A DNA stretch of 38,363 bases from Acidobacteria bacterium 13_1_40CM_65_14 (GTDB lineage Bacteria > Acidobacteriota > Vicinamibacteria > Vicinamibacterales > CAVVIG01): NCBI GenBank assembly GCA_001917905.1, contig MNEX01000118.1:1-38363 (forward strand). Direction: 5' to 3'. Shown piece after piece: positions 2,671 through 37,779 of the stretch; position 1 is the stretch's first letter; the number at the start of each line of letters is the position of its first letter. A program made the position numbers and the translations under genes. The notes below the pieces were generated by a model, which was not told the origin of the DNA, did no database searches, and saw nothing but the letters and a program-made list of their open reading frames with translations.

Positions 2671-4130
2671 TTCGGGGCGCGAGCGGATTGCAGCCGCTCG
2701 AACGCGGTCAATGCCGATTCGAGATCGGATTTGAGACGCGCTTTCGTCGCTGAATCGGCGAACGCGTACTCGATCGAATTGCGCACCATGCGCTTGAGCG
2801 TCGGATAGTCGAGATCCTGTTCTTCGACCGCCTTCAGGTATTCTTGCGTGTGGCTCGAACGCGCGACGCCCATGTCGTCGGTGACGAGCGTCACGGGCAC
2901 GCCGTGCTGCAGATACATCCGCAGCGGATGCCGCTTCCCTTTCACGCCCAGGATGTGATCGTTGCTGCTCAACGCGATCTCGACGAGCACTTTCTTCGCC
3001 GCCATGTCGCGCAGCAGCGCGAACGGGTCGTCCTCGTTGAAGATGTCGACGCCGTGGCCGATGCGCGCCGCGTGGCCGTTCACCACCGATTCCCTGATGT
3101 GGAACCGCAGCGCGTCAGGCGGCACGAGGCCCTCGGTCAGCTCACCCGCGTGCAGCGTGATCGGCACCGTTGGATACCGCGCGTGCAGAAAATCGAGCAT
3201 CGACATGTGCAGGCGGAAGTTACCGAGCGCATTGGGATCGTCCTCGGCCTGGACGAGATTCAGCGACACGACCGGCGTTGCGGCGCTCGCGAGCTCGAAG
3301 CCCGCCAACATCAGCGCGAACACCTGCGCCAGTGCGCCGCCGCGCCCGACTTGGGCGATGTAGCGCACCGTGACGCCGCAACCCGCGTCCTCGGCGGGCG
3401 TTCCACACTTCAGCAGATCGCGACGGCGTGCCTCCGCTTTCGTCAGCCGATCGAGCGCTTCTGCCTTCACCGCGGCGCTGAACTTCCCGCCGTCCATGAT
3501 CCGATCGCGCACCTGCGGAAGCAGCTGCGTTAGCGGAATGGTCGCATCCCAGGCCACGTTCTGCGACGCCGCGAACGCGGCGGTACCAGCCGGGGTCAGC
3601 ATCAGCTCGAGGTAGCTCACGCGTTCTGCCGCGGCACGCGACGTCACGTCCGCCAGCATCTCGCCGGTCTTGCTGGAGGTCGATCCGAACTTCGCGAACG
3701 CCTGAAAGAAATGATCGTGACCGTTGACCGTCTCCGGCCAGTGACGCATCGACAGCGCATCGATCGCCTGGTTGTACAGCGCGGAGTACGTCGACTGGTT
3801 CTCCATCACGTCGGCGAGCGGAACCTGCGGCGTCTTCCCATCGCACGCGACGATCGCGATCGCCGTCGTCGCGAGGCAGAGCTTGTCGTCGGCGCCCCAG
3901 CGAAGGAACTTCTCGGCGTAGACGGCGCCGGACAGGTGATTGTGGAGGTCGCCGCCTTTCGGCATCTCGCGGAGAAACGCGAGCAGCGCCAGCGGATCGT
4001 TGCGGATCGCGGCGAATCGCTTCGCGGTCGCCGCCTCCGCGCTGTCGGCGCGAGCCGTGCGCTGCGGTTGGGCCGCCGTTCCAACGATTGCGAGAACGAG
4101 AACGACAGCAGTGACGCTCAGACGTCGCAT
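2664..4130 (-). CDS. Secreted adenosine deaminase family protein
   Basis: Signal peptide; MPKGGDLHNHLSGAVYAEKF, ITLHAGE, IGHGVDIF, VTLVTDDMGVARSS. Confidence 0.9.
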   Translation of the reverse strand: MRRLSVTAVVLVLAIVGTAAQPQRTARADSAEAATAKRFAAIRNDPLALLAFLREMPKGGDLHNHLSGAVYAEKFLRWGADDKLCLATTAIAIVACDGKTPQVPLADVMENQSTYSALYNQAIDALSMRHWPETVNGHDHFFQAFAKFGSTSSKTGEMLADVTSRAAAERVSYLELMLTPAGTAAFAASQNVAWDATIPLTQLLPQVRDRIMDGGKFSAAVKAEALDRLTKAEARRRDLLKCGTPAEDAGCGVTVRYIAQVGRGGALAQVFALMLAGFELASAATPVVSLNLVQAEDDPNALGNFRLHMSMLDFLHARYPTVPITLHAGELTEGLVPPDALRFHIRESVVNGHAARIGHGVDIFNEDDPFALLRDMAAKKVLVEIALSSNDHILGVKGKRHPLRMYLQHGVPVTLVTDDMGVARSSHTQEYLKAVEEQDLDYPTLKRMVRNSIEYAFADSATKARLKSDLESALTAFERLQSARAPKS

Positions 4131-5719: not shown

Positions 5720-7912
5720 CTAACGCACGCGACTACCTGGCGGAGGCGGGTCTTCGAACGTCACCACTTTGGGATGCCCGCCGTCGGGACTTGCGGCGAG
5801 GACCATGCCGTCCGACTCGATGCCCATCAGCTTCGCGGGCTTGAGATTGAAGACGATCACGACGGTCTTCCCGACCAGCGCGTCAGGCTCGTAGGCTTCG
5901 GCGATCCCGGCGACGAGCGTGCGATGCTCGGTTCCAGCGTCGACCTGGAGCTTCAGGAGCTTGTTGGACTTCGGCACGCGCTCCGCAGCGAGCACTTTCG
6001 CGACGCGCAGCTCCACCTTCATGAAGTCGTCGATCGAGATGCGGTCGCTCACCGGTGCGGGACTCGGCGGCGGCACCGGCTTCGCGCCCGCCGCGGTCGG
6101 CTCGGGCGAAGCTTGCGGATTGGTCGGTACGAGCGCCGGCGCTCCGGCCAGCGTCGGCGGGACGATGGGAGATTTTCTCTGCTCTTCGCTCACGGGTGTG
6201 GACTCCTTTTTATTCGCGCGGGGCCCCACCCCCGCGCCAGACGCGCTCGCACCGTTTTCCAACGCTCGCGGGGCCCCACCCCCGCTCGCCTCGCTCGCGC
6301 CTTCGCGCTCGCTCGAGCCGCGGGCGCTGTGCTCGCGCGTATCTGGAACAGAACGTCCCTGATCGCCGACCGCGGCAGTGGTATCACGTCGGGGCCACAG
6401 AGGGCCTTCTTGCAGAAGCGCGCGCTCGCCGTCCGCGCGCCAGCGACCATCGCGATCGAGATTGAGGCCTTCGACGCTCGCGCCGACGCGCCTGAGAATC
6501 TCGCGACTCGATGACGGCATGATCGGCTCGAGCAGCACGGCAGCCAGTCGAATGGCTTCGGCCGTGTCGAAGAGCACCTGCGTGAGGCGATCGGCCGACG
6601 CCGGATCCTTCGCCAGCGTCCACGGTGCGGTCGCGGCGATGAACTCGTTGGTCGCGTCGATGAGACGGTACGCAGCCGCGGCGCCTTCGTGCAGCGCGAA
6701 GGCGTCCATGGCCTTGCGATAGTCGACGACCACCTGCTCGCCGAGGCGCACGAGCTGATCCGACGCGGCAGCGGCCGGGCGCACGACGCCGCTTCGGTAG
6801 CGTCCCGCCATCGCCGACACGCGGCTGACGAGGTTCCCGAGATTGTTCGCGAGGTCGACGTTGTAGCGCTCGTCGTACCGCTCCCACGAGAAATCGCCGT
6901 CGCCGCCGAACGCGATCTCCTTGACGAGGTACAGCCGCAGCGGATCCTGTCCTTGCGGTCCGAGACGATCGGCCGCTTCGATCGGATCGATGATCGTGCC
7001 GAGCGTCTTACTCATCCGCTGCCCGTTCATCGTCATGAACCCGTGACCGAAAATCTGCCGCGGCACCGGCAGCTTCGCGCTCATGAGCATCGCCGGCCAG
7101 ATGACGGCGTGGAACCGCGTGATGTCCTTGCCGACGACGTGAAGATCCGCAGGCCACCAGCGCTCGAACATCTGCTGGGCCTTGTCTCCAGAGGCGCCCA
7201 GGCCGACCGCCGACGCGTAGTTGATCAACGCATCGAACCACACGTACACGACGCTCGACCGATCCCATGGCAGTGGAATGCCCCACGACTGCCCGGCGCG
7301 GCTGACTGAGATATCGATCAGACCGCCTTCGATGAGTCGCAGGATCTCGTTGCGGCGCATGTCGGGCTGCATGAACTCGGGATGCGCCCGGAAGTGATCG
7401 AGCAGCGGCTGCTGATATTTCGAGAGCCGGAAGAAGTAGTTCTTCTCGCGGATCCATTCGGGCTTCAGCGTCGGGTGGAGAGGACAGTTGCCGTCGACGA
7501 GATCCTTTTCCTGCTTGAACTCTTCGCAGCTGACGCAGTACCAGCCTTCGTACACGCCCTCGTAAATGTCGCCGGCATCGTAGATGCGCTGCGCGATCTC
7601 GGTGACACCGGCCTTGTGCCTCGGTTCGGTCGTGCGGATGAAGTCGTCGAAGGAGACGTCGAGACGCTTCCACGCGGTCCTGAACACCTGCTCCATCTGG
7701 TCGCAGTACGTGAGCGGATCGAGGCCCTGCTCGACCGCCTGCTTGTACACGTTCTGCGAATGCTCGTCGTTGCCCATCAGGAAACGCGTGTCGAAGCCCG
7801 CGAGGCGCTTGTAGCGCGCGATGACGTCGGCGCACACCTTCTCGTAGGCCGTCCCGAGATGCGGCCGGCTGTTGACGTAATCGATCGCGGTCGTCAGGAA
7901 GAATCGTTTCAC
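5720..7912 (-). CDS. metG: Methionyl-tRNA synthetase with C-terminal tRNA-binding domain
   Basis: VKRFFLTTAIDYVNSRPHLGTAYEKV, FGHGFMTMNGQRMSKTLGT; C-term DFMKVELRVAKVLAAERVPKSNKLLKLQVDAG. Start taken as GTG 7910-7912, overlapping the larC stop. Confidence 0.95.
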   Translation of the reverse strand: MKRFFLTTAIDYVNSRPHLGTAYEKVCADVIARYKRLAGFDTRFLMGNDEHSQNVYKQAVEQGLDPLTYCDQMEQVFRTAWKRLDVSFDDFIRTTEPRHKAGVTEIAQRIYDAGDIYEGVYEGWYCVSCEEFKQEKDLVDGNCPLHPTLKPEWIREKNYFFRLSKYQQPLLDHFRAHPEFMQPDMRRNEILRLIEGGLIDISVSRAGQSWGIPLPWDRSSVVYVWFDALINYASAVGLGASGDKAQQMFERWWPADLHVVGKDITRFHAVIWPAMLMSAKLPVPRQIFGHGFMTMNGQRMSKTLGTIIDPIEAADRLGPQGQDPLRLYLVKEIAFGGDGDFSWERYDERYNVDLANNLGNLVSRVSAMAGRYRSGVVRPAAAASDQLVRLGEQVVVDYRKAMDAFALHEGAAAAYRLIDATNEFIAATAPWTLAKDPASADRLTQVLFDTAEAIRLAAVLLEPIMPSSSREILRRVGASVEGLNLDRDGRWRADGERALLQEGPLWPRRDTTAAVGDQGRSVPDTREHSARGSSEREGASEASGGGAPRALENGASASGAGVGPRANKKESTPVSEEQRKSPIVPPTLAGAPALVPTNPQASPEPTAAGAKPVPPPSPAPVSDRISIDDFMKVELRVAKVLAAERVPKSNKLLKLQVDAGTEHRTLVAGIAEAYEPDALVGKTVVIVFNLKPAKLMGIESDGMVLAASPDGGHPKVVTFEDPPPPGSRVR
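6210..6320. repeat. GC-rich repeat in the metG linker, cg(c/t)cgcggggccccacccccgc repeated
   Basis: cgcgcggggccccacccccgcgcc and gctcgcggggccccacccccgctcgcc, in frame in the linker before the tRNA-binding domain. Confidence 0.7.
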
Positions 7913-9243
7913 GAGTGGCTCACGCCGTACGCCTGAATCGCCATCGCCTGGACCTCTTTGACGGAGAGATTGTTGGCGGCGGCCAGCGTCGCGCAGTCGT
8001 CGAACTCGGGCGTGGCGTTGACGATGCGGCCGTCGCGACGCGCGATCTTGAAACGGACGGCGCCAAGCGGCGTCTCGACCGCGACGATCTCCCGGTCGAG
8101 GCACTCCCGCTCCACGTCGTAATGCCGGAGCCCGATCGTCGTTGTCTCACGGAAGATGACGTCGGCCATCCGCGCTCGCGTGTCCGGCGACGCAATCACC
8201 GTGAGCAGCGTGCCTGGACGGTTCTTCTTCATCTGCACCGGCACGTAGAACACTTCGAGCGCACCGGCCGCATAGAGCTGGTCCATGACGATGCCGAAGA
8301 TCTGCGGGTTCATGTCGTCGATCTCGCACTCGATGACGGTGACGCGTTCGGCCTGAGACTGCTCCGCTGCGCGGCCAATCAGCACGCGCAGGACGTTGGG
8401 CGTCGCCGGATCGTCGCGGTCACCGGCGCCATATCCGACGCGTTCGATCGACATCGACGGCACCATTCCAAACGATGTTGCGAACGTTGTCGCAATCAGC
8501 GCGCCGGTCGGCGTCACCAGTTCCTTCTGAACCGCGCCGCTGTAGATGGGTGCGTCGCCCAGCAAGCTCACGGTCGCCGGCGCAGGAACGGGAAACAGTC
8601 CATGCGCCGAGTTGACCATTCCGCCGCCGACGTTCAGCGGTGAGCAGACGACGCGATCGGCGCCGACCCATTCCATGGCGAACACGATGCCGACGATGTC
8701 GATGATCGAGTCGAGGGCGCCGACTTCGTGGAGGTGGACCTGCTCGACCGGCATCTGGTGAATCGCGGCCTCGACTTCACCAAGCCGCTGGAACATCGCC
8801 TTTGCGCGCGCGCGGCCCGTCGCGGACAAGCTCGACCCGTCGATCAACGCGAAAATCTCAGGCAAGCTTCGATGCGCATGCGGACGCTCATGCTCATGGT
8901 GCTGGGCGGATGCTCCAAGGTGCTGGGCGGATGCTCCAGGGTGCTGGGCGGATGCTCTAGGGTGCTCGCCTGAGCCTGCAGGGTGCTCGGCGGATGCTTT
9001 AGGGTGCTGGGCGTGATCGTGATAGTGCTCGGTGGATCCTTTAGCGTGCTCGTGAACGTTGAACTTGATCGCCGACACGCCGGCGCGCAGGACGCGGTCG
9101 GCGTGGATGTGCGCGTCGCCGAGCGCGAGGCTGCCGAGCGCGCGCTTCAGCTCGTCGAGCGGCAGGCCGGCGTCGATCAAGGCGCCGAGCGCCATGTCAC
9201 CGGAGATGCCGGAGAAGCAGTCGAAGTAGAGAACGCGGGACAT
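7909..9243 (-). CDS. larC: Nickel-pincer cofactor biosynthesis protein LarC
   Basis: MSRVLYFDCFSGISGDMALGALIDAGLP, VHLHEVGALDSIIDIVG, ECEIDDMNPQIFGIVMDQL. Confidence 0.94.
   Translation of the reverse strand: MSRVLYFDCFSGISGDMALGALIDAGLPLDELKRALGSLALGDAHIHADRVLRAGVSAIKFNVHEHAKGSTEHYHDHAQHPKASAEHPAGSGEHPRASAQHPGASAQHLGASAQHHEHERPHAHRSLPEIFALIDGSSLSATGRARAKAMFQRLGEVEAAIHQMPVEQVHLHEVGALDSIIDIVGIVFAMEWVGADRVVCSPLNVGGGMVNSAHGLFPVPAPATVSLLGDAPIYSGAVQKELVTPTGALIATTFATSFGMVPSMSIERVGYGAGDRDDPATPNVLRVLIGRAAEQSQAERVTVIECEIDDMNPQIFGIVMDQLYAAGALEVFYVPVQMKKNRPGTLLTVIASPDTRARMADVIFRETTTIGLRHYDVERECLDREIVAVETPLGAVRFKIARRDGRIVNATPEFDDCATLAAANNLSVKEVQAMAIQAYGVSHS
8890..9045 (-). repeat. 21-bp coding tandem repeat giving a His-rich heptad in LarC
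   Basis: HPKASAE HPAGSGE HPRASAQ HPGASAQ HLGASAQ HHEHERPHAH; DNA ~21-bp unit ctgggcggatgctccarggtg. Confidence 0.85.
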
Positions 9244-9278
9244 CAGTTGGTCTTTCGCAGCTCGCTAGCAGCCACTCG

Positions 9279-9428
9279 CTGCTGAATCGGTACGGGCTCG
9301 GTCACAACGATGAACGCAAAGCGCGCAAAGCGCGCAAAGAAAACCAGATGAAGTGAATTCTTTGCGGTCATTGCGGTCTTTGCGTTCCAGGTCGTTCGGG
9401 TTCTGTTTCAACGAAGACGCTCCACTAG
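9279..9428 (+). repeat. Family B 150-bp dispersed palindromic element, copy B1
   Basis: Ungapped 150-bp match (about 126/150 by hand) to the reverse complement of 24937-25086; internal cgcaaagcg units. Confidence 0.9.
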
Positions 9429-10093
9429 AGTCGTCCCGATTCCTTGAAGCTGCAGTACTGCACGTCGCCGAGGATGACGTGATCCACCAGGTCGATGCCC
9501 ATCAGCACTCCCGCCGACACGAGCCGGCGCGTCAGATCGATATCATCGGCGCTCGGCGTCGGATCGCCTGACGGATGATTGTGGAACGCGACGATCGCGG
9601 TCGCGCCGCCGAGCACCGCCTCGCGAAAGACGTCCCGCGGCTCGACGTGCGACGTGTTCAGCGTGCCGCGCACCAGCACGGTCGTGCGGATCACCCGATG
9701 CTTGGTGTCGAGCAGGATCAACCCGAACTGCTCGATCGCGCGGCCGCCGAATCGCGGCAGCAGATACAGCGCCGCGGCATTCGGACTGAGCAGCTGCATC
9801 CGCTCCGCCGGCGCCTGCGCCAGCGTCCGGCGACCCAACTCGAGCGCCGCCAGGATCTGCGCCGCCCGCGACTGGCCGATGCCGGCGACGCGCGCCAGAT
9901 CGTCGCCGCTGCAGCGCGTCAGACCATGCAGACCGTCGTAGGTCGCGAGCAGTGCGTTGGCCAGCTCCAGCGCGCTGCCGTGTCGCCCGCCGTGCGCGAT
10001 GATCAGCGCCACCAGCTCGTTGTCGCCGAGCGCCGACGCACCGTGGTGCCACAGCTTCTCGCGCGGCCGATCGTCAAGCGACAGGTCTTTCAT
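9425..10093 (-). CDS. radC: RadC/JAB domain DNA repair-type protein
   Basis: DRPREKLWHHGASALGDNELVALII, FHNHPSGDPTPSADDIDLTRRL, DHVILG. Confidence 0.95.
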   Translation of the reverse strand: MKDLSLDDRPREKLWHHGASALGDNELVALIIAHGGRHGSALELANALLATYDGLHGLTRCSGDDLARVAGIGQSRAAQILAALELGRRTLAQAPAERMQLLSPNAAALYLLPRFGGRAIEQFGLILLDTKHRVIRTTVLVRGTLNTSHVEPRDVFREAVLGGATAIVAFHNHPSGDPTPSADDIDLTRRLVSAGVLMGIDLVDHVILGDVQYCSFKESGRL

Positions 10094-10122
10094 CGTACTA
10101 CAGCCGACGTATACTTGAATCG

Positions 10123-10704
10123 ATGTCCGCTCGCCGTCTGCTGCTCTCCTTCGCCGTCGCGGCGGCGTTGATCGGCGCGGCATGCGGCGATCCGCCCGAC
10201 AAGGAAATCCAGCAGGCACAAGGCGCGATCGACGCGGCGCGCGCCGCCGGCGCCGATCAGTACGCGACCGCCGAGTTCACCGCGGCGCAGGAGGCGCTCA
10301 AGCGCGCGAACGACGCCGTCGAGCAACGTGACTACCGGCTCGCCCTCAACCATGCGCTCGACGCCCGCGAGCGCGCGCAGAACGCCGCCAAGGAAGCCGC
10401 GGATCGGAAAACGACCGCCCGCAGCGAGGCCGAGCGCGCCCTGCTCGATGCGATGACCGCGCTGAACGACGCTCACACGAAGCTCCGCGCCGCGGAGACC
10501 GGTCGCGCGCCGGTCAAGACAGTCGTCACGGCGCGGCGCGTGATCACGGACGGCGAGGACACTGTGCAAAAAGCGCGCGCGGCGTTCGATGGGGGGGACT
10601 ATCTCACCGCCAAGACGACGATGGTGGGAACAACCGAGCGTCTGAAGGCCACGGCGCACGAACTCGAAGCCGCCACGCCGAATAGCAACCGCCGGCGTCG
10701 CTGA
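10123..10704 (+). CDS. DUF4398-like lipoprotein
   Basis: MSARRLLLSFAVAAALIGAACGD lipobox; helical YATAEFTAAQEALKRANDAVEQRDYRLALNHALDARERAQNAAKEAADRK. Confidence 0.8.
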   Translation: MSARRLLLSFAVAAALIGAACGDPPDKEIQQAQGAIDAARAAGADQYATAEFTAAQEALKRANDAVEQRDYRLALNHALDARERAQNAAKEAADRKTTARSEAERALLDAMTALNDAHTKLRAAETGRAPVKTVVTARRVITDGEDTVQKARAAFDGGDYLTAKTTMVGTTERLKATAHELEAATPNSNRRRR

Positions 10705-10760: not shown

Positions 10761-10860
10761 CATTACTAGTCGTACTCAAGCCTGACTTCAGCCTGACTTC
10801 AGCCTGACTCGAGTCAGGCTCCAGCCTGACTGCAGCCTGACTTCAGTCCGACTTCAGCCA
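10761..10860. repeat. 11-nt quasi-tandem repeat (cagcctgactt) with a perfect 20-bp palindrome (family G)
   Basis: cattactagtcgtactcaagcctgacttcagcctgacttcagcctgactcgagtcaggctccagcctgactgcagcctgacttcag; agcctgactcgagtcaggct is self-complementary. Confidence 0.9.
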
Positions 10861-11634
10861 GGTGCCGTCGAAGAGGACCTCGGCCCAGCCGGTCAGATAG
10901 ACGCTGTCGCCGCGCCACTCGACGCGTTGCGTGCCCCCGGGCGCCGTGACCTGGGCGTCCCGCGCGGCGCCGCCGAACGCCGACGCGGCAATCAGCGACG
11001 CGCACGATCCCGTTCCCGACGACTGCGTCGGCCCGACCCCGCGCTCCCAGATCAGGATCCGCACGGCCTCGCGCGACTCGACCTGGGCGAACTCCACGTT
11101 GGTCCGCTCGGGAAACATCTCGTGACGCTCGAGCGCGGCGCCAAGACGCTGGAAACGCTCGCGATCGGGCAGCGCGCCGAGCACGACCGCCTGCGGATTG
11201 CCGAAATCCATCACCACAATCTGAAACGATTCACCCGCGGCCGCAATCGGCACCTGGCGCAGATTGCGCGGAAGGCCCATCTGTGCCCGAAACGTCTGGC
11301 GCGATCCCGATTGCCCGGTTCTGGTCAACCGTTTGGGCCCGGCCTCCGTCTGAATCGTGAGCTCGACGTTCGCGCGGCTCTCGTCTCGCAGCAACAGCGC
11401 GCCGAGCCCGCGGACCCCGTTGCCCGACACCTCCGAGCGGCTCCCGTCGGCGTTGAACAGGCGCATCGATGCGCCCTCCGCCGTCGGTTCGTAGACGATC
11501 AGGCCGTCGGCGCCGGCGCCGGCATGACGATCGCACAGCGCGCGCGCGAGGAGATCGAGCGCGAGAACGCCGACGTCGCCGTTCAGGACGTAGAGGAAAT
11601 CGTTCCCATAGGCGTGAGCTTTGGTGAACCGCAT
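10843..11634 (-). CDS. dapF: Diaminopimelate epimerase
   Basis: MRFTKAHAYGNDFLYV, RLFNADGSRSEVSGNGVRGLGALL, NVEFAQV, ERGVGPTQSSGTGSCASLIAA. Confidence 0.94.
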   Translation of the reverse strand: MRFTKAHAYGNDFLYVLNGDVGVLALDLLARALCDRHAGAGADGLIVYEPTAEGASMRLFNADGSRSEVSGNGVRGLGALLLRDESRANVELTIQTEAGPKRLTRTGQSGSRQTFRAQMGLPRNLRQVPIAAAGESFQIVVMDFGNPQAVVLGALPDRERFQRLGAALERHEMFPERTNVEFAQVESREAVRILIWERGVGPTQSSGTGSCASLIAASAFGGAARDAQVTAPGGTQRVEWRGDSVYLTGWAEVLFDGTWLKSD

Positions 11635-11640
11635 CAAAGA

Positions 11641-11786
11641 AATCTCCACCACAGAGGACACCTCATTGCGGATTGAGGATTGCGGAATGCGGATTGATTG
11701 CGGATTCAATCGAACGATAAATCCGCAATCCGCAATCCGCAATTCGCATTTACGTGCCGTCCCCCGTGTCCTCCGTGGTGGCGAGC
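11641..11786. repeat. Family A palindromic arms enclosing a second palindrome (family H)
   Basis: Outer ctccaccacagaggacac / cgtcccccgtgtcctccgtggtggcgag; inner ttgcggattgaggattgcggaatgcggattg...aatccgcaatccgcaatccgcaattcgcat. Confidence 0.85.
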
Positions 11787-15111: not shown

Positions 15112-15121
15112 CGGATCCTCA

Positions 15122-15220
15122 CCTCTCCACCACAGAGGACACGGGGACGCGGAGGAAGAATCCTGTTTTGTCGGCAGGTTTGAACCTCCGTGTCCTCTGT
15201 GTCCCCTGTGGTGGAGAGTT
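15122..15220 (-). repeat. Family A palindromic element, copy A3
   Basis: Reverse complement ctctccaccacaggggacacagaggacacggaggttcaaacctg...cttcctccgcgtccccgtgtcctctgtggtggagag matches 1874-1968. Confidence 0.87.
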
Positions 15221-15225
15221 CATCA

Positions 15226-15675
15226 TCAAAACCGTTTCCTGCTGTCCAACAGCAACGTGACGGGGCCGTCGTTGACCAGCGACACCAGCATCATCGCCTG
15301 AAACTCGCCGGTCGCGACCTTCAGGCCGTTCGCCTGCAGCTCGCGCACGACGTCTTCGTACAGCGGCTTGGCAATCCGGGGCGGCGCGGCCTCGTCGAAC
15401 GACGGCCGGCGACCTTTCCGGCAATCGGCCGCGAGCGTGAACTGCGAGACGACGAGCACCGAGCCGCCGACGTCCTGGACGGATCGATTCAGATGTCGCG
15501 CCTCGTCTTCGAAAACACGCAGCTCTCGGATTTTTCTTGCGATGTATTCCACGTCGGCTGGACCGTCGCCCTGCTCGACGCCGACCAACACCAGCAATCC
15601 TTGCCCGATCTCCCCCACGGTGCGGTCGTCGACGGTGACTTTGGCGGACAACACTCTTTGGACGACGGCTCTCAT
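15226..15675 (-). CDS. dtd: D-aminoacyl-tRNA deacylase
   Basis: [79 protein letters not shown]. Confidence 0.95.
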
Positions 15676-16621: not shown

Positions 16622-16810
16622 AAGAGTCGATTCTAGACCACAAGCTCGCCACCACGGCGGAGTCGATTCTGCACCACGAGCTCGCCACCATGGCGGAGTC
16701 GATTCTGGACCACAAGCTCGCCACCACGGAGGACGCGGGGGACACGGGGCGAGAGCTGTACTGGATTTCACCCCGTGTCCTCCGTGTCCCCCGTGGTGGC
16801 GAGTTCCTCA
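16622..16810. repeat. 36-bp tandem repeat (~3 copies) followed by family A palindrome A4
   Basis: agtcgattctgcaccacgagctcgccaccatggcgg-type 36-mers, then ctcgccaccacggaggacgcgggggacacgggg...ccccgtgtcctccgtgtcccccgtggtggcgag. Confidence 0.9.
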
Positions 16811-17877: not shown

Positions 17878-17944
17878 TAGCTCTCCACCACGAAGGACGC
17901 GGAGGACAGGAGGAAAGCATGGGAGAGTGAACGTGGAGAGTTCT
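17878..17944. repeat. Degenerate family A element, copy A5
   Basis: ctctccaccacgaaggacgcggaggacaggagg...cgtggagag; one arm eroded. Confidence 0.6.
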
Positions 17945-18768: not shown

Positions 18769-19678
18769 GTTCGCGATACCAGTTCAGCGTGCGAGTGATG
18801 CCTTCGCGCAGACCGACGCGCGGCGCGTACCCAAGCTCGTGACGCGCACGCGAGATGTCGAAGGCGCGGCTCTTCGTGAAAAAGTCGACACGGCGACGAT
18901 GGATCGGCGGCTCGATGCCGAGCGGCGTGCACAGCGCTTCGCACGCCGCACCGGCGATCACCTCCCCGCCGGCCAGGATGTAGGTGCGATTGGCGGCCGC
19001 GGCATGCTCGCCGCACAACCGGAACCCTTCAACCAGATCGTCGATGTAGGTCAGATGGTAATAGATTTCGCCGCTGCCGAGCGTGATCCAGCGGCGGCGG
19101 GCGACGCCGCGAAACAGCCTCAGAAGGCGCCGATCGCCGGGGCCGTAGATCCCGGTTGGGCGCGCGATCGTGACCTCGACGCCGGTACGCGCGCCGGTTT
19201 CGCGGGCCAGTCGCTCCCCTTCGAGCTTCGTGTCTTGATACACGTCACCCGGCTTGAGCGGCGCGTCTTCGTTGGCGGGTGGGCCCTCGACGTCGCCGTG
19301 CACGCCGACGGTGCTGCAGTGCACGACGCGGCGGACGCCACCGCGCGCGGCCGCCTCGATCAGGGCGCCGACAGCCGTCGCGTTGACCGCGCGATACGCC
19401 TCGGCCGGCAGGCCGGCCTGCCTGTAGATGGCGGCGATGTGATAGACGAGGTCGACGCCGGCCGTCGCGGCGCCAAGGGCCTGAGGGTCGCGCAGGTCGC
19501 CAGGGACGATCGTGATGCCGGCGCCGGCCAAGGTGGCCAAGGTGTCAGACACGTGTCTGACACCGGTGTCAGACACCTGGCCGCGGACGAGGGCGCGGAC
19601 GTCATGCCCGCGCGCCGCGAGCGCCCGCGCGAGGTGACCGCCGGTGAATCCGGTGGCGCCGGTTACGAGGATGCGCAC
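18755..19678 (-). CDS. NAD-dependent epimerase/dehydratase
   Basis: MRILVTGATGFTGGHLARALAARGHDVRALVRG, DLVYHIAAIYR, YQDTKLEGERLARE. Contains an in-frame palindrome-encoded VSDTGVRHVSDT. Confidence 0.92.
   Translation of the reverse strand: MRILVTGATGFTGGHLARALAARGHDVRALVRGQVSDTGVRHVSDTLATLAGAGITIVPGDLRDPQALGAATAGVDLVYHIAAIYRQAGLPAEAYRAVNATAVGALIEAAARGGVRRVVHCSTVGVHGDVEGPPANEDAPLKPGDVYQDTKLEGERLARETGARTGVEVTIARPTGIYGPGDRRLLRLFRGVARRRWITLGSGEIYYHLTYIDDLVEGFRLCGEHAAAANRTYILAGGEVIAGAACEALCTPLGIEPPIHRRRVDFFTKSRAFDISRARHELGYAPRVGLREGITRTLNWYREHGWL
19541..19577. repeat. REP-like palindrome in epimerase CDS (family J, copy 1)
   Basis: Perfect 24-bp palindrome ggtgtcagacacgtgtctgacacc followed by ggtgtcagacacc. 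Confidence 0.92.
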
Positions 19679-20424: not shown

Positions 20425-21644
20425 GCCACATCCTCGGTGTCAGACACGTGTCTGACACGTGTCTGACACCTGGTCGGTGCGGCGAGGGCGTCACAGGCCT
20501 GGCGCGTGCGTTCGAGATACGCCTCGTAGCTGTACTTCGCGTCGGCGAGCTGTCGGGCCCGGCGGCCAATTGCGGCGGCGCGGTCCACATCCGTCATCAC
20601 GGCGAGAATCCCGTCCGCAAATGCCTGCGGCGTCGCGCCGGTGAGGATCGCGGTGTCGTCGCTCAAGACCTGCGTGTGCGTCAGCAGTCGGGTTGCGACG
20701 ATCGGTTTGCCGGACCGCAGATACTGATAAATCTTCAGGGGCGTGTTCGTGCCGCGCGAGCGCGGCGAGACGAGCACGTCCGCCGCCAGCAGATACGCGG
20801 GAATCTCCGAGGCTGGCCGCTCACCCGCGAAGATCGTCACAGCGTCGATGCCCGCCGCGCGCGCCTGCGCGCGCGCGCGCTCGATCTGATCCGGCTTGCC
20901 GCCGGCGAGCACGAGGCGCGCGTTCGGCCGCGCGCGCTGCACGATGGCCATCGCGTCGAACAGCAAGTCGAGTCCCTGATACGCCTCGAACGTCCCGGTA
21001 TAGAGGATCACCGGCGTCGACGGCTCGACTCCGAGTGCGCCGCGGACGTCTGAGGCCTGCGCCGGCGTCGCCTGATCCTCGGTCGATCCCGGCGCATTCT
21101 CGATGAGCACCGTCTGCGCGTGCGGTTCGATCGCGCGCACGGTGTCCTCGAGCGACGGGCAAATGACGATGACGACGCGCGAGCGGCGGATCATGAAGCG
21201 CTCGATGCCGAGAAACGCGCGGCGGATGAGCCGCGACCGGCTGAACGCGAAGTTCGTCAGCTGCTGCGGCAGGCTCGAGTGCATGTCGTAGAGATGCGGC
21301 ACGCGCAGCAGCGCGGCGAGCGCCGCGCCAATCAACCCGCCTTCTTCGTGCGAGTGGATGGCGTCGTACCGTGCCGACAGCACACGGCGGATCGCCGTGA
21401 GCGTGAGCAGCGCGTTGAGCGGAATCTTCGCGAACGAGGGACCGATCTTCACGCCGCGCAGAAACGGCGGCCGCAGACTGCGGAACACACGCAGTCCCGG
21501 CATCGCCACATCCTGGCCGAACGGATAGGTGACGAGATCGACGTAGTGGCCGAGCGCGGTCATGGCACGGATGCGATGAAACTCACTGAACGGCGTGCCC
21601 CGCGGTTCGAAGAACGGCTCGGGTGCGATCATCAAGATGCGCAC
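20421..21644 (-). CDS. Glycosyltransferase family 4
   Basis: VRILMIAPEPFFEPRGTPFSEFHRIRAM, VILYTGTFEAYQGLDLLFDAM, RSGKPIVATRLLTHTQVL; GTG start inferred (ORF open to 21665). Confidence 0.9.
   Translation of the reverse strand: MRILMIAPEPFFEPRGTPFSEFHRIRAMTALGHYVDLVTYPFGQDVAMPGLRVFRSLRPPFLRGVKIGPSFAKIPLNALLTLTAIRRVLSARYDAIHSHEEGGLIGAALAALLRVPHLYDMHSSLPQQLTNFAFSRSRLIRRAFLGIERFMIRRSRVVIVICPSLEDTVRAIEPHAQTVLIENAPGSTEDQATPAQASDVRGALGVEPSTPVILYTGTFEAYQGLDLLFDAMAIVQRARPNARLVLAGGKPDQIERARAQARAAGIDAVTIFAGERPASEIPAYLLAADVLVSPRSRGTNTPLKIYQYLRSGKPIVATRLLTHTQVLSDDTAILTGATPQAFADGILAVMTDVDRAAAIGRRARQLADAKYSYEAYLERTRQACDALAAPTRCQTRVRHVSDTEDVA
20436..20470. repeat. REP-like palindrome in the GT4 3' end (family J, copy 2)
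   Basis: ggtgtcagacacgtgtctgacacgtgtctgacacc, translated in frame as RCQTRVRHVSDT. Confidence 0.92.
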
Positions 21645-22735: not shown

Positions 22736-22804
22736 TTGGCCGATTGCCCGAGGATATCGCTCCATCCCACCCGGCGCGACCGTTGCTACGACAACTCCCA
22801 TCCC

Positions 22805-24940
22805 GTGAACCGGATCCCCTGGGTTGTCATTGCGGCGGCGATCGCTGTGCAGGGCGAAGCGCGGCTCGGCGTCGCTCGCGCCCAGTCGCCGGCCGGCGAA
22901 TACGCGCGGACCGCCACGGTCACCTCGCTGACCGGTCTGCGCGCCGACGTCACGTGGAATCCTCTTCGCGTCACCGTCCGCGAGCCGGCCACCGGACGTG
23001 TCGTCAGCCAGCTCGGAGCGAGCGGGATTCCCGCGCTGTTTTTTGAGAGCGACGCCGGATCGCGCGCGATCCAGGGCGATCCGATCGTCGAACGCACGAC
23101 GCTGAACGGATATCGCGCGACGTATGCGCTCGACGCTGGCCGGCGCGCCGAGGTCGAGCTGCAGTGGACGCCGGCGGAGACCCTGCTCGTCACGCTGCGG
23201 TTCGAACCAGACGGCGAGATCCGGCGGCTCGGCGCGCAGCTGCCGGTCGCATCCGACGAGCACTTCGTCGGTCTCCTCGAACGCACCGTCGACAATCCGG
23301 CGGCCGACGGCCGGCCGCTCTCGGCGGCACTCGATCTCCGCGGCCAGACCGTCTCGATGTTCGTGAAGCCGACTCACAGTCTGTATCTGCCGTTCTACCT
23401 GTCGTCAGCCGGGTACGGCGTATTCGTCGAGGGCACGTGGCCCGGCGTCTTCGATCTCGCGGCGTCGCGCGGCAACACGACTGCGTTTTCGTTCGAAGGA
23501 CCGGAGCTGAAATTCCACGTCATTCCCGGTCCCGATCCGGCGGCGATTCTCGGCCGCTACGTGCAGGTGGCCGGCCGCCCGCTCGTCCCGCCGAAATGGG
23601 CGTTCCTGCCGTGGCGATATCGCGACGAGCACGTGAACCTTCCGCGCTTCTACGACGGCACGGCGTACTCCGGGCCGTACAATTCGCAGGTCGTCGAAGA
23701 CGTCCTGATGCTGCAGGCGCTCGACATCCCGCTCGGCGTGTACTGGATCGATCGGCCGTGGGCCGTCGGACACGAGGGCTACGACGACTTCACGTGGGAT
23801 CGCAGGCGCGTGCCGAACCCGGAGCGGATGATTCGCTGGCTCGACGACAAAGGGATCAGATTCCTCCTCTGGCTCGCGCCGTGGATTCAAGGCTCCATCG
23901 TCGACGAGGCGAAGCGGCGCGGCTTCCTGATGCCGGATCTCGCGTCACAGAACGACCACTCTCACGTCGACTTCACCAATCCCGGCGCCACTGTGTGGTG
24001 GCAGGACTGCGTGCGTACGCTCGTGGACGCCGGCGTTGCCGGGTTCAAGCTCGATCGCGGCGATGAGGAAGTGCCAGGCCGCGTCGATCTCCGCACGGCG
24101 GATGGACGAACGACGCGTGAGGTGCACAACGACTATCCGCGGCTCTACGCCGGCGCGGCGCATCAACTCCTCACCGCTCGGCGTCCGGACGATTTCATCC
24201 TGATGGCGCGCGCGGGATATACCGGGAGCCAATCGCTGGCCGCCTTCTGGGCCGGCGACTCGAGCACGTCGGAATGGGGTCTGCGGCAAGCGATCATCGC
24301 CGCGCAGCGCGCCGCCGTCATGGGATTCTCCCTCTGGGGCACGGACATCGGCGGGTACGGCATGAGACTCGATCGCGAAGTGCTGGCGCGCTGGATTGCC
24401 TTCGGCGCGTTCACGCCGATCATGCAGGTCGGCCCGACAGAGAACCGCGGCCTGTGGGACATGCCGACCGAGCCGCGGTACGACACGGAGCTCATTGCGA
24501 TCTGGCGCCTGTACGCGAAGCTCCACACCGCGCTGCAAAACTACAGCGTCGCGCACGCGCTGATCGCGCGCGAGACGGGCGTGCCGATGATCCGGCCGCT
24601 TTTCCTCGCCTTCCCTGACGATCGCCGGGCGTGGGACACGTGGGAAGAGTTTTTCTACGGCGACGACATTCTCGTCGGCGCGATCTGGCGGAAAGGTCAA
24701 CGTGCGATGTCGGTCTATCTTCCGGAGGGCGACTGGCTCGACATGTGGAATCCGACCCGCCTCGTCAGCGGACCGATCACGCTGACCGTCGACTGCCCGA
24801 TGTACAAGATTCCGATCTTCATTCGGCCACGCGCGGCGACGGCGAGGGCCATGGGCGACTTGAACGCGCTGTGGGACGACTCACTGAAGCGGGCGCGCGC
24901 GAAACCGGATCTCGCGGGGCTGGCCGCCGCGATCCACTAG
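22805..24940 (+). CDS. GH31 alpha-glucosidase/alpha-xylosidase-like
   Basis: Signal peptide; GVYWIDRPWAVG, GVAGFKLDRGDEE, FWAGDSSTSEWGLRQAI, GFSLWGTDIGGYG. Confidence 0.9.
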   Translation: MNRIPWVVIAAAIAVQGEARLGVARAQSPAGEYARTATVTSLTGLRADVTWNPLRVTVREPATGRVVSQLGASGIPALFFESDAGSRAIQGDPIVERTTLNGYRATYALDAGRRAEVELQWTPAETLLVTLRFEPDGEIRRLGAQLPVASDEHFVGLLERTVDNPAADGRPLSAALDLRGQTVSMFVKPTHSLYLPFYLSSAGYGVFVEGTWPGVFDLAASRGNTTAFSFEGPELKFHVIPGPDPAAILGRYVQVAGRPLVPPKWAFLPWRYRDEHVNLPRFYDGTAYSGPYNSQVVEDVLMLQALDIPLGVYWIDRPWAVGHEGYDDFTWDRRRVPNPERMIRWLDDKGIRFLLWLAPWIQGSIVDEAKRRGFLMPDLASQNDHSHVDFTNPGATVWWQDCVRTLVDAGVAGFKLDRGDEEVPGRVDLRTADGRTTREVHNDYPRLYAGAAHQLLTARRPDDFILMARAGYTGSQSLAAFWAGDSSTSEWGLRQAIIAAQRAAVMGFSLWGTDIGGYGMRLDREVLARWIAFGAFTPIMQVGPTENRGLWDMPTEPRYDTELIAIWRLYAKLHTALQNYSVAHALIARETGVPMIRPLFLAFPDDRRAWDTWEEFFYGDDILVGAIWRKGQRAMSVYLPEGDWLDMWNPTRLVSGPITLTVDCPMYKIPIFIRPRAATARAMGDLNALWDDSLKRARAKPDLAGLAAAIH

Positions 24941-25086
24941 TGAAGCGTCTTCGCTGAAACAGTACCAGGACCACAAGGAACGCAAAGACCGCGATGACCG
25001 CAAAGAAGCAACTTCACGTGGCTTTCTTTGCGGGCTTTGCGCCCTTTGCGTTCATCGTGATGGCCGTGCCGTTACTGATTCAGCAG
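24937..25086 (-). repeat. Family B 150-bp dispersed palindromic element, copy B2
   Basis: Reverse complement matches 9279-9428 without gaps; sharp edges CTGCTGAATC...CACTAG. Confidence 0.9.
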
Positions 25087-25102
25087 TGACCGGGCACGAG
25101 CT

Positions 25103-26482
25103 TCAGCGCACGAAGAACACGGTGAACGTTTCCCAGAGGCCGGCCGACGGACGATTGACCGCGGCGCGCCCGCCACCGCCGCCTTCGGCGGTGAGATACC
25201 ACGCACCGTCGTTCACGCGCATCCTGATGCCGTCTCCCGGCCGGACCGCGCCGCCTCCAGGTTTTTCGACGAGGAACGTTTCAAACGCTCCGATCTTCTC
25301 CCCGACCGCGCGCAACGATCCGCCGCCACCGCCAACGGCCTGGAAATAATGCGTCTCGTTGGCGGTGCGGAGCGCCACGCGATCGCCGTCGACGATCGGC
25401 CCTCCCGCGAGCACGCTGACCGTGAACGTCTCATATGGACCGGCCCCGAGTCGATCGGCGTTCACGTCGTCGCCGCCGCCGCCCTCCGCCACCACGTAGT
25501 TGATTCCGTTGCTCGTCCGGAGATTGACGCGAGGGATCAGCGAATTCACGAAATTCCGCTCCGGCTCGGGCTCTGACTCGATCAGGCTCTGAAAGAGCGC
25601 GTCCGGTCGATCACCTTGGATGTTGGTGTGAAAACACCACGCGGCCGCTCCCGCCAGCTTCGCGTTGATCATCTGCTCCCGATAGTTCGCCGAGCTATAG
25701 CTCGACGGAAAGTACGGATATCGTGTCGGCATCGGTTCCTGGAGGTACGCCGGCTTGCCGTTGGCTCTGAGCGCGCCGACGACCAGCTGCACCCATGAGG
25801 ACTCGTAAAAGGCCCCCGTGCGCGGATCGTGGTATGCGGTCACATCGAGTCCGGTTTGTGCGGCGAAGGCGGACGCAAACGCCGCCGTGTCTTCGGAGCT
25901 GTTCGACGCCGTCACGATCCGGCTGGCATGAACGCTCTTGATGCCGGCTCGAATGCTCGCCACGTCGCCCGCGCTGAGCGGCTTGCCGAACGGGCCATAG
26001 ACGTTGCGCTCGTTCTGGATGTCGAACAGCACGCCGTCGTAGTCCCGCAGCTCGGCGGTTGTCGCGAGGATGGCGTCGCGGAAGCGCGCGGCGTCCAGTC
26101 CGGGAATGTGTTCCGCGGTGAACGACACATCCACGACAAGATGCTCGTCGCGCGCGCGGTCGAGAATGAACCGGAGCGTCGACAAGCCCTCCGCGCTCAG
26201 CGAGCCGTCGCGCTTCATGAGCTGCACCGGCCCCGTGTTCAGGTTCGGCCAGATGCGTACGCCGTCAAAACCTTTGCTGCGGACGTACTTCAGGTCGGCC
26301 GTCACGTTGACCGCATTCATGGCCGCGAAATACGAAATGAAGGTCACAAACCTGGGCGTGCCGTCGATCGCGAACCGATCGCCCTGGATCGACAGACGCT
26401 GCGCGTGAGCGGTGGCGGACCAGCAGAATGTGAGGAAGATGAAAACCAGTCGCGGGAGTCGGCGACGAACCAGGATCTCCAT
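25103..26482 (-). CDS. Secreted TIM-barrel (cellulase/GH5-like) protein with C-terminal fascin-like beta-trefoil repeats
   Basis: QRLSIQGDRFAIDGTPRFVTFISYFAAM, FDIQNERNVYG; three NxxYxxAEGGGGG...AGxxETFTV repeats. Confidence 0.8.
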   Translation of the reverse strand: MEILVRRRLPRLVFIFLTFCWSATAHAQRLSIQGDRFAIDGTPRFVTFISYFAAMNAVNVTADLKYVRSKGFDGVRIWPNLNTGPVQLMKRDGSLSAEGLSTLRFILDRARDEHLVVDVSFTAEHIPGLDAARFRDAILATTAELRDYDGVLFDIQNERNVYGPFGKPLSAGDVASIRAGIKSVHASRIVTASNSSEDTAAFASAFAAQTGLDVTAYHDPRTGAFYESSWVQLVVGALRANGKPAYLQEPMPTRYPYFPSSYSSANYREQMINAKLAGAAAWCFHTNIQGDRPDALFQSLIESEPEPERNFVNSLIPRVNLRTSNGINYVVAEGGGGDDVNADRLGAGPYETFTVSVLAGGPIVDGDRVALRTANETHYFQAVGGGGGSLRAVGEKIGAFETFLVEKPGGGAVRPGDGIRMRVNDGAWYLTAEGGGGGRAAVNRPSAGLWETFTVFFVR

Positions 26483-26516
26483 GGGGCCTCCCAAGATCGG
26501 AGTATGGCATATCCAG

Positions 26517-28145
26517 CTACGGTGGGAATCCGGCGATTTCGTATAGCCGTGTGAAATCATCCCGGTACAGCAGCCTCAGATATGGCGCGAACTCCTCGAG
26601 GCGTGCGAGGACGTCGTGACGATTTTCGGTGTTGAAGCCGTACATGTGGAACACGGCGTATCGCACGCCGTTCGGCTCGAGAATCTTCAGCGCGTCGTGG
26701 CTCGGGAACGTCGCGAGCACCATCACGTTCTGGTAGAAATCCGGCGGGATGTAATCGCTGTAGCCGTTGACGAGCGGAAACCAGTGACTCGTCGACGCCA
26801 GCATGTACTTCGTGTGCTGATACAGGCCTACCTGCGGATAGAAGAACGGCATCTCGATCACCGGCGCGCGCGGCAGCGTGGCGAGGATGCGATACACGGG
26901 CTCGACCGCCGGCGCATCGGGAATGTTGAGCGGCACGAGGAGCTCCGCGGCCGCGAACGCCGCGATGACGCTGCCGGCGAGGGTCGCCCGCCGCAGCCGC
27001 GGTAAGAGCGTCGCCAGCGCCGCGCCCGCGAGCACCGAGAGCCCGAACGCGACGATGACCCCGAATCGGCCCGGTGCGCGCATCAAGGCGAATACCGGCA
27101 CGACGCGATAGAGCACGCGGTAAAGACCGGCGGCGGGCCCGAACGACGCCCAGAACGCCAGCGCCGCGAGTCCGCCGTACAACACGGCGATCTCGCCGCC
27201 CCGCATGCGTCTCGCCAGCCAGACGCCGGCGACGCCGAACGTCAGCGCGATGATTCCGGGAAAGATCACTTCGACGCCCCATGGCGGCAGAAAACGCAGC
27301 AGCCACGCGTGCGCGTACGACGAGCTGGCGAGATACGCGCTCCAGTTCGCGGAGTACGCGCGCGCGTCGCTCAGCGATCGGCCGAAGCCAAGATTCCGCT
27401 GGAGCGAGACGTACGGCAGAAACGGTGGGACGACGAGCGCCAGAGAGACGACCGCCGCGGTCGCGACCGCGGTCCAGTACGCGCGATCGGTCCAGCGCCG
27501 CCCCGTCGCCGCGACCACCAGCACGGCGAAGCCGATCATCAGCGTCACGAACACGCCGTAGTAGCCGCAACAGATGGCTTGCGCCGCCATCACCGCGCCC
27601 AGCACGGCTCCGCGACCGAGCGTGGGTCGATCCGCCATGCGATGGAATGCGAGCATGCTGAACGGCAGGCCGGCGATCATCAGCAGCTGGATGTGCGCGG
27701 TGTGCGCGAAGAGATACGGACAGAACGCAAAGCAGACAGCCGACACGGCAGCGGCGCGCCGGTCGTGCGTCAGATAGCGCACGAGGTAGTACGTGCCGGT
27801 GGCCGTCAGCATGAACGCGAGCACGACGACCGTGTTGTGCGCCGCGTAGGGATTGCCGCTCGTCAGCCAGTACGCCGGAACGGCCATCGCGCCGGCGCCG
27901 AGATTGTTCTCCGAGTATGCGAGCGTGCCGAGATGTGGATAAAAGATGTTGGCGTCGAAGACGTGCCGTGGATCCAGCACGAGCGTGCGCGCCACCCAGG
28001 CGACGTTCCAGATCGACAACTGACCATCGCCGTTGTCGACGCGGCCGACGCGACCGATCTTGAACGCGAGCGGATACGTGAATGCGGCGGCGAGGATCGC
28101 GCTGATCGCGAGGACCGCGGCCAGCTCCCCGCGGCGTCGAATCAT
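26517..28145 (-). CDS. Multi-TM GT-C/mannosyltransferase-like membrane protein
   Basis: Multiple hydrophobic segments; RVDNGDGQLSIWNVAWVARTL, RAPGRFGVIVAFGLSVLAG; ATGA overlap with the next gene. Confidence 0.8.
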   Translation of the reverse strand: MIRRRGELAAVLAISAILAAAFTYPLAFKIGRVGRVDNGDGQLSIWNVAWVARTLVLDPRHVFDANIFYPHLGTLAYSENNLGAGAMAVPAYWLTSGNPYAAHNTVVVLAFMLTATGTYYLVRYLTHDRRAAAVSAVCFAFCPYLFAHTAHIQLLMIAGLPFSMLAFHRMADRPTLGRGAVLGAVMAAQAICCGYYGVFVTLMIGFAVLVVAATGRRWTDRAYWTAVATAAVVSLALVVPPFLPYVSLQRNLGFGRSLSDARAYSANWSAYLASSSYAHAWLLRFLPPWGVEVIFPGIIALTFGVAGVWLARRMRGGEIAVLYGGLAALAFWASFGPAAGLYRVLYRVVPVFALMRAPGRFGVIVAFGLSVLAGAALATLLPRLRRATLAGSVIAAFAAAELLVPLNIPDAPAVEPVYRILATLPRAPVIEMPFFYPQVGLYQHTKYMLASTSHWFPLVNGYSDYIPPDFYQNVMVLATFPSHDALKILEPNGVRYAVFHMYGFNTENRHDVLARLEEFAPYLRLLYRDDFTRLYEIAGFPP

Positions 28146-36618: not shown

Positions 36619-37683
36619 TTATCGGCGCCGGATCAGGAACCCGCCGGTCACCATCGCGCGCGGATCCCACGTCAGCGTCGGGGGCAACTCGAGGGTCTGC
36701 GTAATCGACTTGAAGAAGGTGTCGGCGATCCGTTGATAGCCGGCGGCGGTCGGATGCAAGCCATCGAAGTCGATGAGGGTGGTCGTGTCGCCGTTGAAGG
36801 CCGGGTATACGTCGACGAGCGTCACGCCTTCGGCCGCAGCCAGCGATCGCAATCGATTGTTGTACGGCTCGACGAACGCGGCGGCGTTGCCTCGGCGCGG
36901 ACAGCATGCGAGCGGGTTCTGCGGCGGCAGCGTGGCCAGGAATACGCGAAGCCCCCGGCTCTTTGCATCGCGTACCATGAACTGCATCGCGGATACTGCG
37001 GGATCCACGGCCTTCGCTTCTCCGAACAGGAGATCGTTGGCGCCCTCCATCAGCAGCAGAACTTCGTAGCCGGCTCCGGCGAGCACGCCCGACAAACGGC
37101 TCCGGCCTTGGATCGCCTGTTCGCCGCTGAGACCCTGATTGCGCACGAACGGCGTCTGCGCCGTGTAGCGGCCGACCAACGCGACCTCGAGACGGCGAGG
37201 ATACGCAGACCCCGGGTCGACGAGGAATCCGCCGGTAAACGGATTGAGGCCAAGACCGGGAATCTCGCCGGTGGTCATGCTGTCGCCGAACGCGACGACT
37301 CGCGTGAGGCTGATCCTTGGCGGTGATGTGACGGTGATCGTGAACGTGCAGGGCGCGGTGCGTTGGCGCGCATCGGTCGCAAGGCACGTGACGGTCGACG
37401 TCCCGACCGGAAACGCCCCACCGCTCTGCGGGGTGCAGCTCACGGTGACTGGCGGCGCGCCGGAGATGGCCGTCGCCTGACCGTAGACGACGACCGTGGG
37501 CTCACCGCGCAGCGACGCCACGGTCACCGGCTGCGGACACGTAATCTCGACGGCGGCCGGATCCGGCGGCGGCGGTGGCGGCGGAGTCGGAGTGTTCGGA
37601 CCAGTGCAGCGCAGCGTCGCGGTCGCCGCGAGAAGAATGAGGAGAGTCGAGAAGCGGCCTGTTCCGGGCAACCTTCGAACCAT
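36619..37683 (-). CDS. SGNH/GDSL hydrolase with N-terminal Ig/HYR-like domain
   Basis: Signal peptide; VVAFGDSMTTGEIPGLG, LLLMEGANDLLFGE, DFDGLHPTAAGYQRIADTFF. Confidence 0.88.
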   Translation of the reverse strand: MVRRLPGTGRFSTLLILLAATATLRCTGPNTPTPPPPPPPDPAAVEITCPQPVTVASLRGEPTVVVYGQATAISGAPPVTVSCTPQSGGAFPVGTSTVTCLATDARQRTAPCTFTITVTSPPRISLTRVVAFGDSMTTGEIPGLGLNPFTGGFLVDPGSAYPRRLEVALVGRYTAQTPFVRNQGLSGEQAIQGRSRLSGVLAGAGYEVLLLMEGANDLLFGEAKAVDPAVSAMQFMVRDAKSRGLRVFLATLPPQNPLACCPRRGNAAAFVEPYNNRLRSLAAAEGVTLVDVYPAFNGDTTTLIDFDGLHPTAAGYQRIADTFFKSITQTLELPPTLTWDPRAMVTGGFLIRRR

Positions 37684-37759
37684 TACTAGTCAGGCAGCAG
37701 TCAGGCACGAGACAACATTACTAGTCAGGCAGCAGTCAGGCATGAGACAACATTACTAG
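37681..37759. repeat. 35-bp tandem repeat (2.3 copies) carrying the GDSL gene start codon
   Basis: cattactagtcaggcagcagtcaggca(c/t)gagacaa x2 plus cattactag. Confidence 0.93.
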
Positions 37760-37779
37760 CGTGGCCGCGCGCAAAAAGC

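Follow-up and report, generated by a model that had tools for sequence, protein, structure and literature searches.

A probable IS630-family MITE placed at stop codons in an acidobacterial genome

The two copies of a dispersed repeat, herein B1 and B2, within the window (the whole stretch of 38,363 nucleotides analyzed) are very probably copies of a non-autonomous mini-transposon of the IS630 family (Tc1/mariner superfamily), a MITE with about 158 bp between its TA dinucleotides. IS630-derived MITEs are a kind already known; in the searchable literature, no published description of this family was found, and the words of the repeat also matched nothing. Less ordinary are the exact placement at stop codons, the orientation bias and a core common to palindromes within genes. 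The clade of the parent transposon can now probably be named for a repeat which alone resembled an unexplained structured element.

The segment 9279-9428 of the window and the reverse complement of 24937-25086 were found to match at 126 of 150 positions without gaps, exactly the count made in the initial annotation. Among the inverted pairs of the window, this one is the longest (153 nt, 84%), and the repeat stands well above chance, with more long matches in its own genome (E down to 1.6e-43). In the adjoining 40 bases beyond the match, the identity is down to 14/40 and 12/40. Both edges had been taken as sharp: this was correct for the right edge, which is exactly the terminal CTAG (9425-9428), while the left edge had been placed 14 bp too far in. 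After alignment of all copies, the true left start was located at the CTAG at 9265 in B1 and at a mutated CTCG (25097-25100) in B2. With this correction the size is about 164 bp (Table 1), larger than annotated owing to decay of the left end. The sharpness of the edges is attributable to transposition, the terminal inverted repeats abutting the TA in CTAG.

Table 1. Positions of B1, B2 and the adjacent genes within the window
Feature	Position	Strand	Evidence
Full element copy B1, C-TA-[158 bp]-TA-G	9265..9428	+	Alignment of all copies; empty orthologous site in 5 relatives
Left-end TA of B1, presumed target duplication, inside CTAG 9265-9268	9266..9267		
Left terminal inverted repeat of B1, diverged in B1	9268..9292	+	
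Core palindrome of B1: three CGCAAAG words, then a loop and the inverted words, with CTTTGCGTTC at the end	9312..9387	+	Fold; invariant columns
Right terminal inverted repeat of B1	9401..9425	-	
Right-end TA of B1, presumed target duplication; shared with the radC stop (TAG on the - strand)	9426..9427		
Full element copy B2, with CTCG by mutation at its left end	24937..25100	-	
Core palindrome of B2	24978..25053	-	
Right-end TA of B2, supplying the TA of the TAG stop in the GH31 gene	24938..24939		
radC-like gene, TAG stop in the terminal CTAG of B1	9425..10219	-	
larC-like (nickel insertion) gene, start 22 bp from the left end of B1	7909..9243	-	
Glycosyl hydrolase family 31 gene, TAG stop in the terminal CTAG of B2, start codon uncertain	22736..24940	+	
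Convergent gene, end 3 bp from the left end of B2	25103..26560	-	DUF7910 match only, weak

A genome-wide search of the own assembly (G000; 6.3 Mb, 342 contigs, 87% complete) yielded about 25 full or near-full copies, together with shorter matches limited to the central hairpin, and the proposal of a dispersed, defined unit exceeding its hairpin was borne out by these many further copies. Set in one orientation, all the copies fall into subfamilies with a common plan. At the extreme ends, (C/T)TAG prevails on the left and CTAG on the right: 14 of 21 copies have CTAG or TTAG as the left end, the right end is CTAG in most, and TA is present at both ends in most. Many copies are thus CTAG/CTAG, and others are TTAG/CTAG or mutated. 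Adjoining the TA within (C/T)TAG are imperfect terminal inverted repeats of about 25 nt (for example, left TAGTGGCGTGTCTCGCCTGAATCAGTA; right, read inward, TAGTGGAGTGTCTTCGTTGAAACAGTA), the left and right repeats being mismatched at about one-third of positions. Inward of the terminal repeats lie less conserved arms and then the core, with the layout GAACGCAAAG NN CGCAAAG NN CGCAAAG - loop - CTTTGCGG..., ending CTTTGCGTTC. The interior is this palindrome, and no transposase gene is carried.

Direct evidence from sequence comparison shows the ends of the MITE to be IS630 ends, and they match those of one IS630 clade of the same bacterial order. A degenerate terminal-repeat pattern was detected in named genomes on six contigs, including one of a Luteitalea MAG (L081, 5202-6302), in which two terminal repeats in inverted orientation, 1.1 kb from each other, enclose a 350-aa frame encoding a transposase of the IS630 family (NF033545, E 2.2e-75; PF13358, E 1.4e-26). 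The left CTAG of this IS is located at the stop codon of a ferredoxin gene. For avoidance of circularity, relatives of the L081 transposase were collected by protein homology alone from 162 genomes of the order, and their loci were scanned with a profile built from the MITE ends, the TA being left out. At five loci (L083, L084, L085, L086 and L093), the top two profile matches were exactly both termini of the IS, with scores of 17-31 bits, the next best reaching no more than 8, and at L087 one IS end was matched. The IS630 elements with matching ends also stand in CTAG, with TA at the ends. In the order's more distant IS630 elements (about 40% identity), the ends give no strong match to the MITE profile, and the IS630 genes found via PF13358 in three relatives (G010, G011 and G016) were rejected as the parent, as their ends did not match. 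The preference of IS630 for TA in 5'-CTAG-3' is given in the title of Tenzen and Ohtsubo (1991), as listed among the references of PMC2170065, and TA is duplicated by ISY100, a member of the IS630 family (PMC2170065).

Within the own genome, the terminal-repeat pattern (3 mismatches allowed) gave only the known copies and no autonomous IS; a DDE_3 (PF13358) gene or a close IS630 homolog was found neither in this 87% complete genome nor in its congener. The autonomous partner may have been lost or may be unassembled. The plasmid and phage collections gave no match. MITE-like sequences with the same IS630-type ends and different interiors were observed in another Acidobacteria MAG (L080, about 3752-3980) and in a Planctomycetota MAG (L079, about 2930-3080), and thus the ends and the interior of the element are separable.

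In 10 of the 18 full copies, a long frame (711 to at least 1500 nt) enters from the right and its stop is the TAG of the right terminal CTAG; these copies are L001 (B1, radC), L003, L004 (B2, GH31), L005, L006, L008, L009, L012, L013 and L017. At L007, where CTCG replaces the right CTAG, the frame runs on to an in-frame TGA, the next codon of the element. The left terminal tetranucleotide is the stop of a comparably long frame only at L002 (669 nt), with shorter left-end frames at L007, L009 and L012. Taken over loci L001-L017, the coincidence with a stop was seen for 10-11 copies at the right end versus at most 1-4 at the left end. This bias of right over left is not predicted by a palindromic target.

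For nine copies, the two flanks were joined with the element removed and used as queries against five relatives of the family; the alignment of the loci compares this genome with those relatives. At the radC-larC locus of B1, the element is absent in all of G001, G006, G010, G011 and G016; the radC gene in these relatives stops at the corresponding codon position or beside it, with TGA or TAG there and TAG here. The relatives' stop is also in the same place at L003, L005, L006 and L013. Because the orthologs at these five loci, including B1, have the stop at the same place, the insertions hit pre-existing gene ends and did not truncate the genes. The Pfam domain of RadC at B1 is matched to residue 262 of 264. 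At the L003 site, G006 carries an uninserted CTAG stop. In some relatives, other repeats, among them other hairpins, are found at these intergenic positions.

We propose that an IS630-type DDE transposase would excise the element in trans and join it to TA, preferentially within (C/T)TAG, the TA presumably being duplicated upon insertion. The gene would then keep C-TA, and the first base of the element, G, would restore the TAG. The exact placement of such repeats at gene ends could be explained in this way, the target CTAG containing the stop and the insertion rebuilding it. As CTAG would be tolerable mainly outside coding sequences and at TAG stops, copies would be retained at gene ends by tolerance and not by attraction. 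The end tetranucleotides are not identical in about half of the copies, and for this reason the TA duplication as an exact event is unproven copy by copy.

The CTAG at the ends of the B1/B2 family is also the target of MITEPsy1 of Pseudomonas syringae, a MITE of about 100 nt which is assigned to the IS5 family and duplicates CTAG or YTAA (PMC3189936). It is nevertheless very improbable that the family is an IS5-type MITE with a 4-bp target duplication, because its terminal repeats match those of IS630 elements and are unrelated to those of MITEPsy1; moreover, copies with TTAG on the left and CTAG on the right (L002 and L013) seem to fit a 2-bp TA duplication, for which later mutation is not needed, better than a duplication of four bases. 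Another mode of transfer, in which a Y1 (HUH) tyrosine transposase mobilises the palindrome in single-stranded form as in REP/RAYT or TIRYT systems, would agree with the strongly palindromic core, with one Y1_Tnp gene (L051) in the genome and with the description of acidobacterial TIRYT genes having long terminal repeats (PMC3733652). We give this mode hardly any credence, since the paired terminal repeats adjoining TA match IS630 termini and since the assembled side of the L051 gene, the other side being cut by a contig end, is without element repeats, while other short palindromes are located near this gene and near its relatives. The L051 transposase was accordingly rejected as the mobiliser, no flanking CTAGTGG...TGAATCAGTA repeats being present on the assembled side.

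The remaining alternative is a structured RNA or a regulatory or terminator element retained at the 3' ends of genes because of a host function, in keeping with the strong predicted fold (-51 and -68 kcal/mol) and with the exact start of about half of the copies at a stop codon, predominantly in one orientation. This is highly unlikely in view of the following. RNAalifold analysis of 18 full copies gave 35 pairs, of which only one showed a two-sided change, in a single sequence; positive covariation was not seen among these copies, and the compensatory substitutions sought in the stem are essentially nil. Both arms hold their core words almost without variation, an observation that is neutral as to a structural role. 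The full copies are mostly 158-167 bp with small indels, and one is 178 bp (L025), so the exact length is not conserved; the constraint on length or structure that had been read from the ungapped divergence was thus not upheld by either the lengths or the pairs. In addition, there is no Rfam match within the window, the stem is not followed by a run of T in the element sequence, and the orthologous B1 locus is without the element in five relatives. The element may have acquired an effect on host mRNA later.

As an IS630-derived MITE, the element can be compared with several known systems. Its ends match the terminal inverted repeats of one clade within the family of IS630 and ISY100 (NCBIfam NF033545), and it shares with IS630-family IS elements the TA inside CTAG at the ends and the bacterial order; in contrast to the IS of 1.1 kb, it is about 158 bp in size, with a palindromic interior and no transposase gene. 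Nezha, RUP and Correia elements are bacterial MITEs of the IS630/Tc1-mariner type. Reviewed in PMC10969869, these are likewise short, non-coding, multi-copy and mainly intergenic, with terminal repeats and a TA target, but the B element differs in the sequence of its terminal repeats, its placement at CTAG stop codons and the CGCAAAG core.

The CGCAAAG core is not restricted to the MITE. Bare CGCAAAG palindromes without IS630 ends are present in the own genome at L026, L030, L102, L106-L109, L115, L117 and L118, and the core is found with quite different outer arms (TGTGAAAGAATCACGTT...) at L027-L029, L103, L111-L114, L116 and L119; a similar form with arms is also present in the relative G011. 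One palindromic core is therefore common to mobile units with different ends. The triple CGCAAAG word occurs 111 times in G000 (54+57) and 0 times in the control orientation, and is sporadic outside the own genome, a phylum-wide sample of 297 genomes having it in only 8. Two bare palindromes are located in frame inside genes, adding, relative to the relatives, net 48 nt at L030 (1507-1572) and net 54 nt at L115 (168-232, in a gene that is Sir2-like by sequence), both multiples of three. For the bare-hairpin sites L117, L106 and L026, the alignment gave no clear junction. The L030 gene appears to carry a second palindrome of the CGCAGAG type. When translated, the palindrome gives a Lys-Ala run followed by a hydrophobic Phe-Ala/Leu-Ala run, and at L102 and L106 its place is within or close to an N-terminus resembling a signal peptide.

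Rickettsia palindromic elements occur inside genes. By description, the dispersed bare CGCAAAG palindrome resembles these elements as well as the REPs found inside genes (PMC3733652); the B element differs from both in having IS630 ends in addition. It is conceivable, although we consider it rather doubtful, that the element is a composite mobile unit, in which a self-spreading palindrome, able also to enter genes in frame, became enclosed by IS630 ends and was re-amplified as a stop-codon MITE with a preferred orientation, possibly shaping the 3' ends of host mRNA. The shared core offers a tractable entry to the question of how the numerous CGCAAAG/CGCAGAG/CACGGAGG hairpins in Acidobacteriota genomes spread.

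Several other repeats were noted in the course of the analysis. Another hairpin family, with CCACCACGGAGGACACGG arms, is located in the window at 1874-1971, 11642-11786, 15114-15227, 16717-16803 and 17879-17915, the copy at 11642-11786 having a second palindrome (ATTGCGGATT...) nested inside. A 21-bp tandem repeat (GGTGCTGGGCGGATGCTCCAA) at 8877-9055 in the larC-like gene encodes a repetitive insert. Short clusters of palindromic or direct repeats belonging to other families (AGCCTGACTTC; CATTACTAGTCAGGC; GGTGTCAGACACGTGTCTGACACC) are present at 10768-10866, 37681-37770, 19540-19574 and 20436-20471, and some of these resemble repeats beside Y1 transposase genes. In the congener G001, CGCAGAACTCGCGGAACTCGCAGAG hairpins are abundant, being found at about 40 places.
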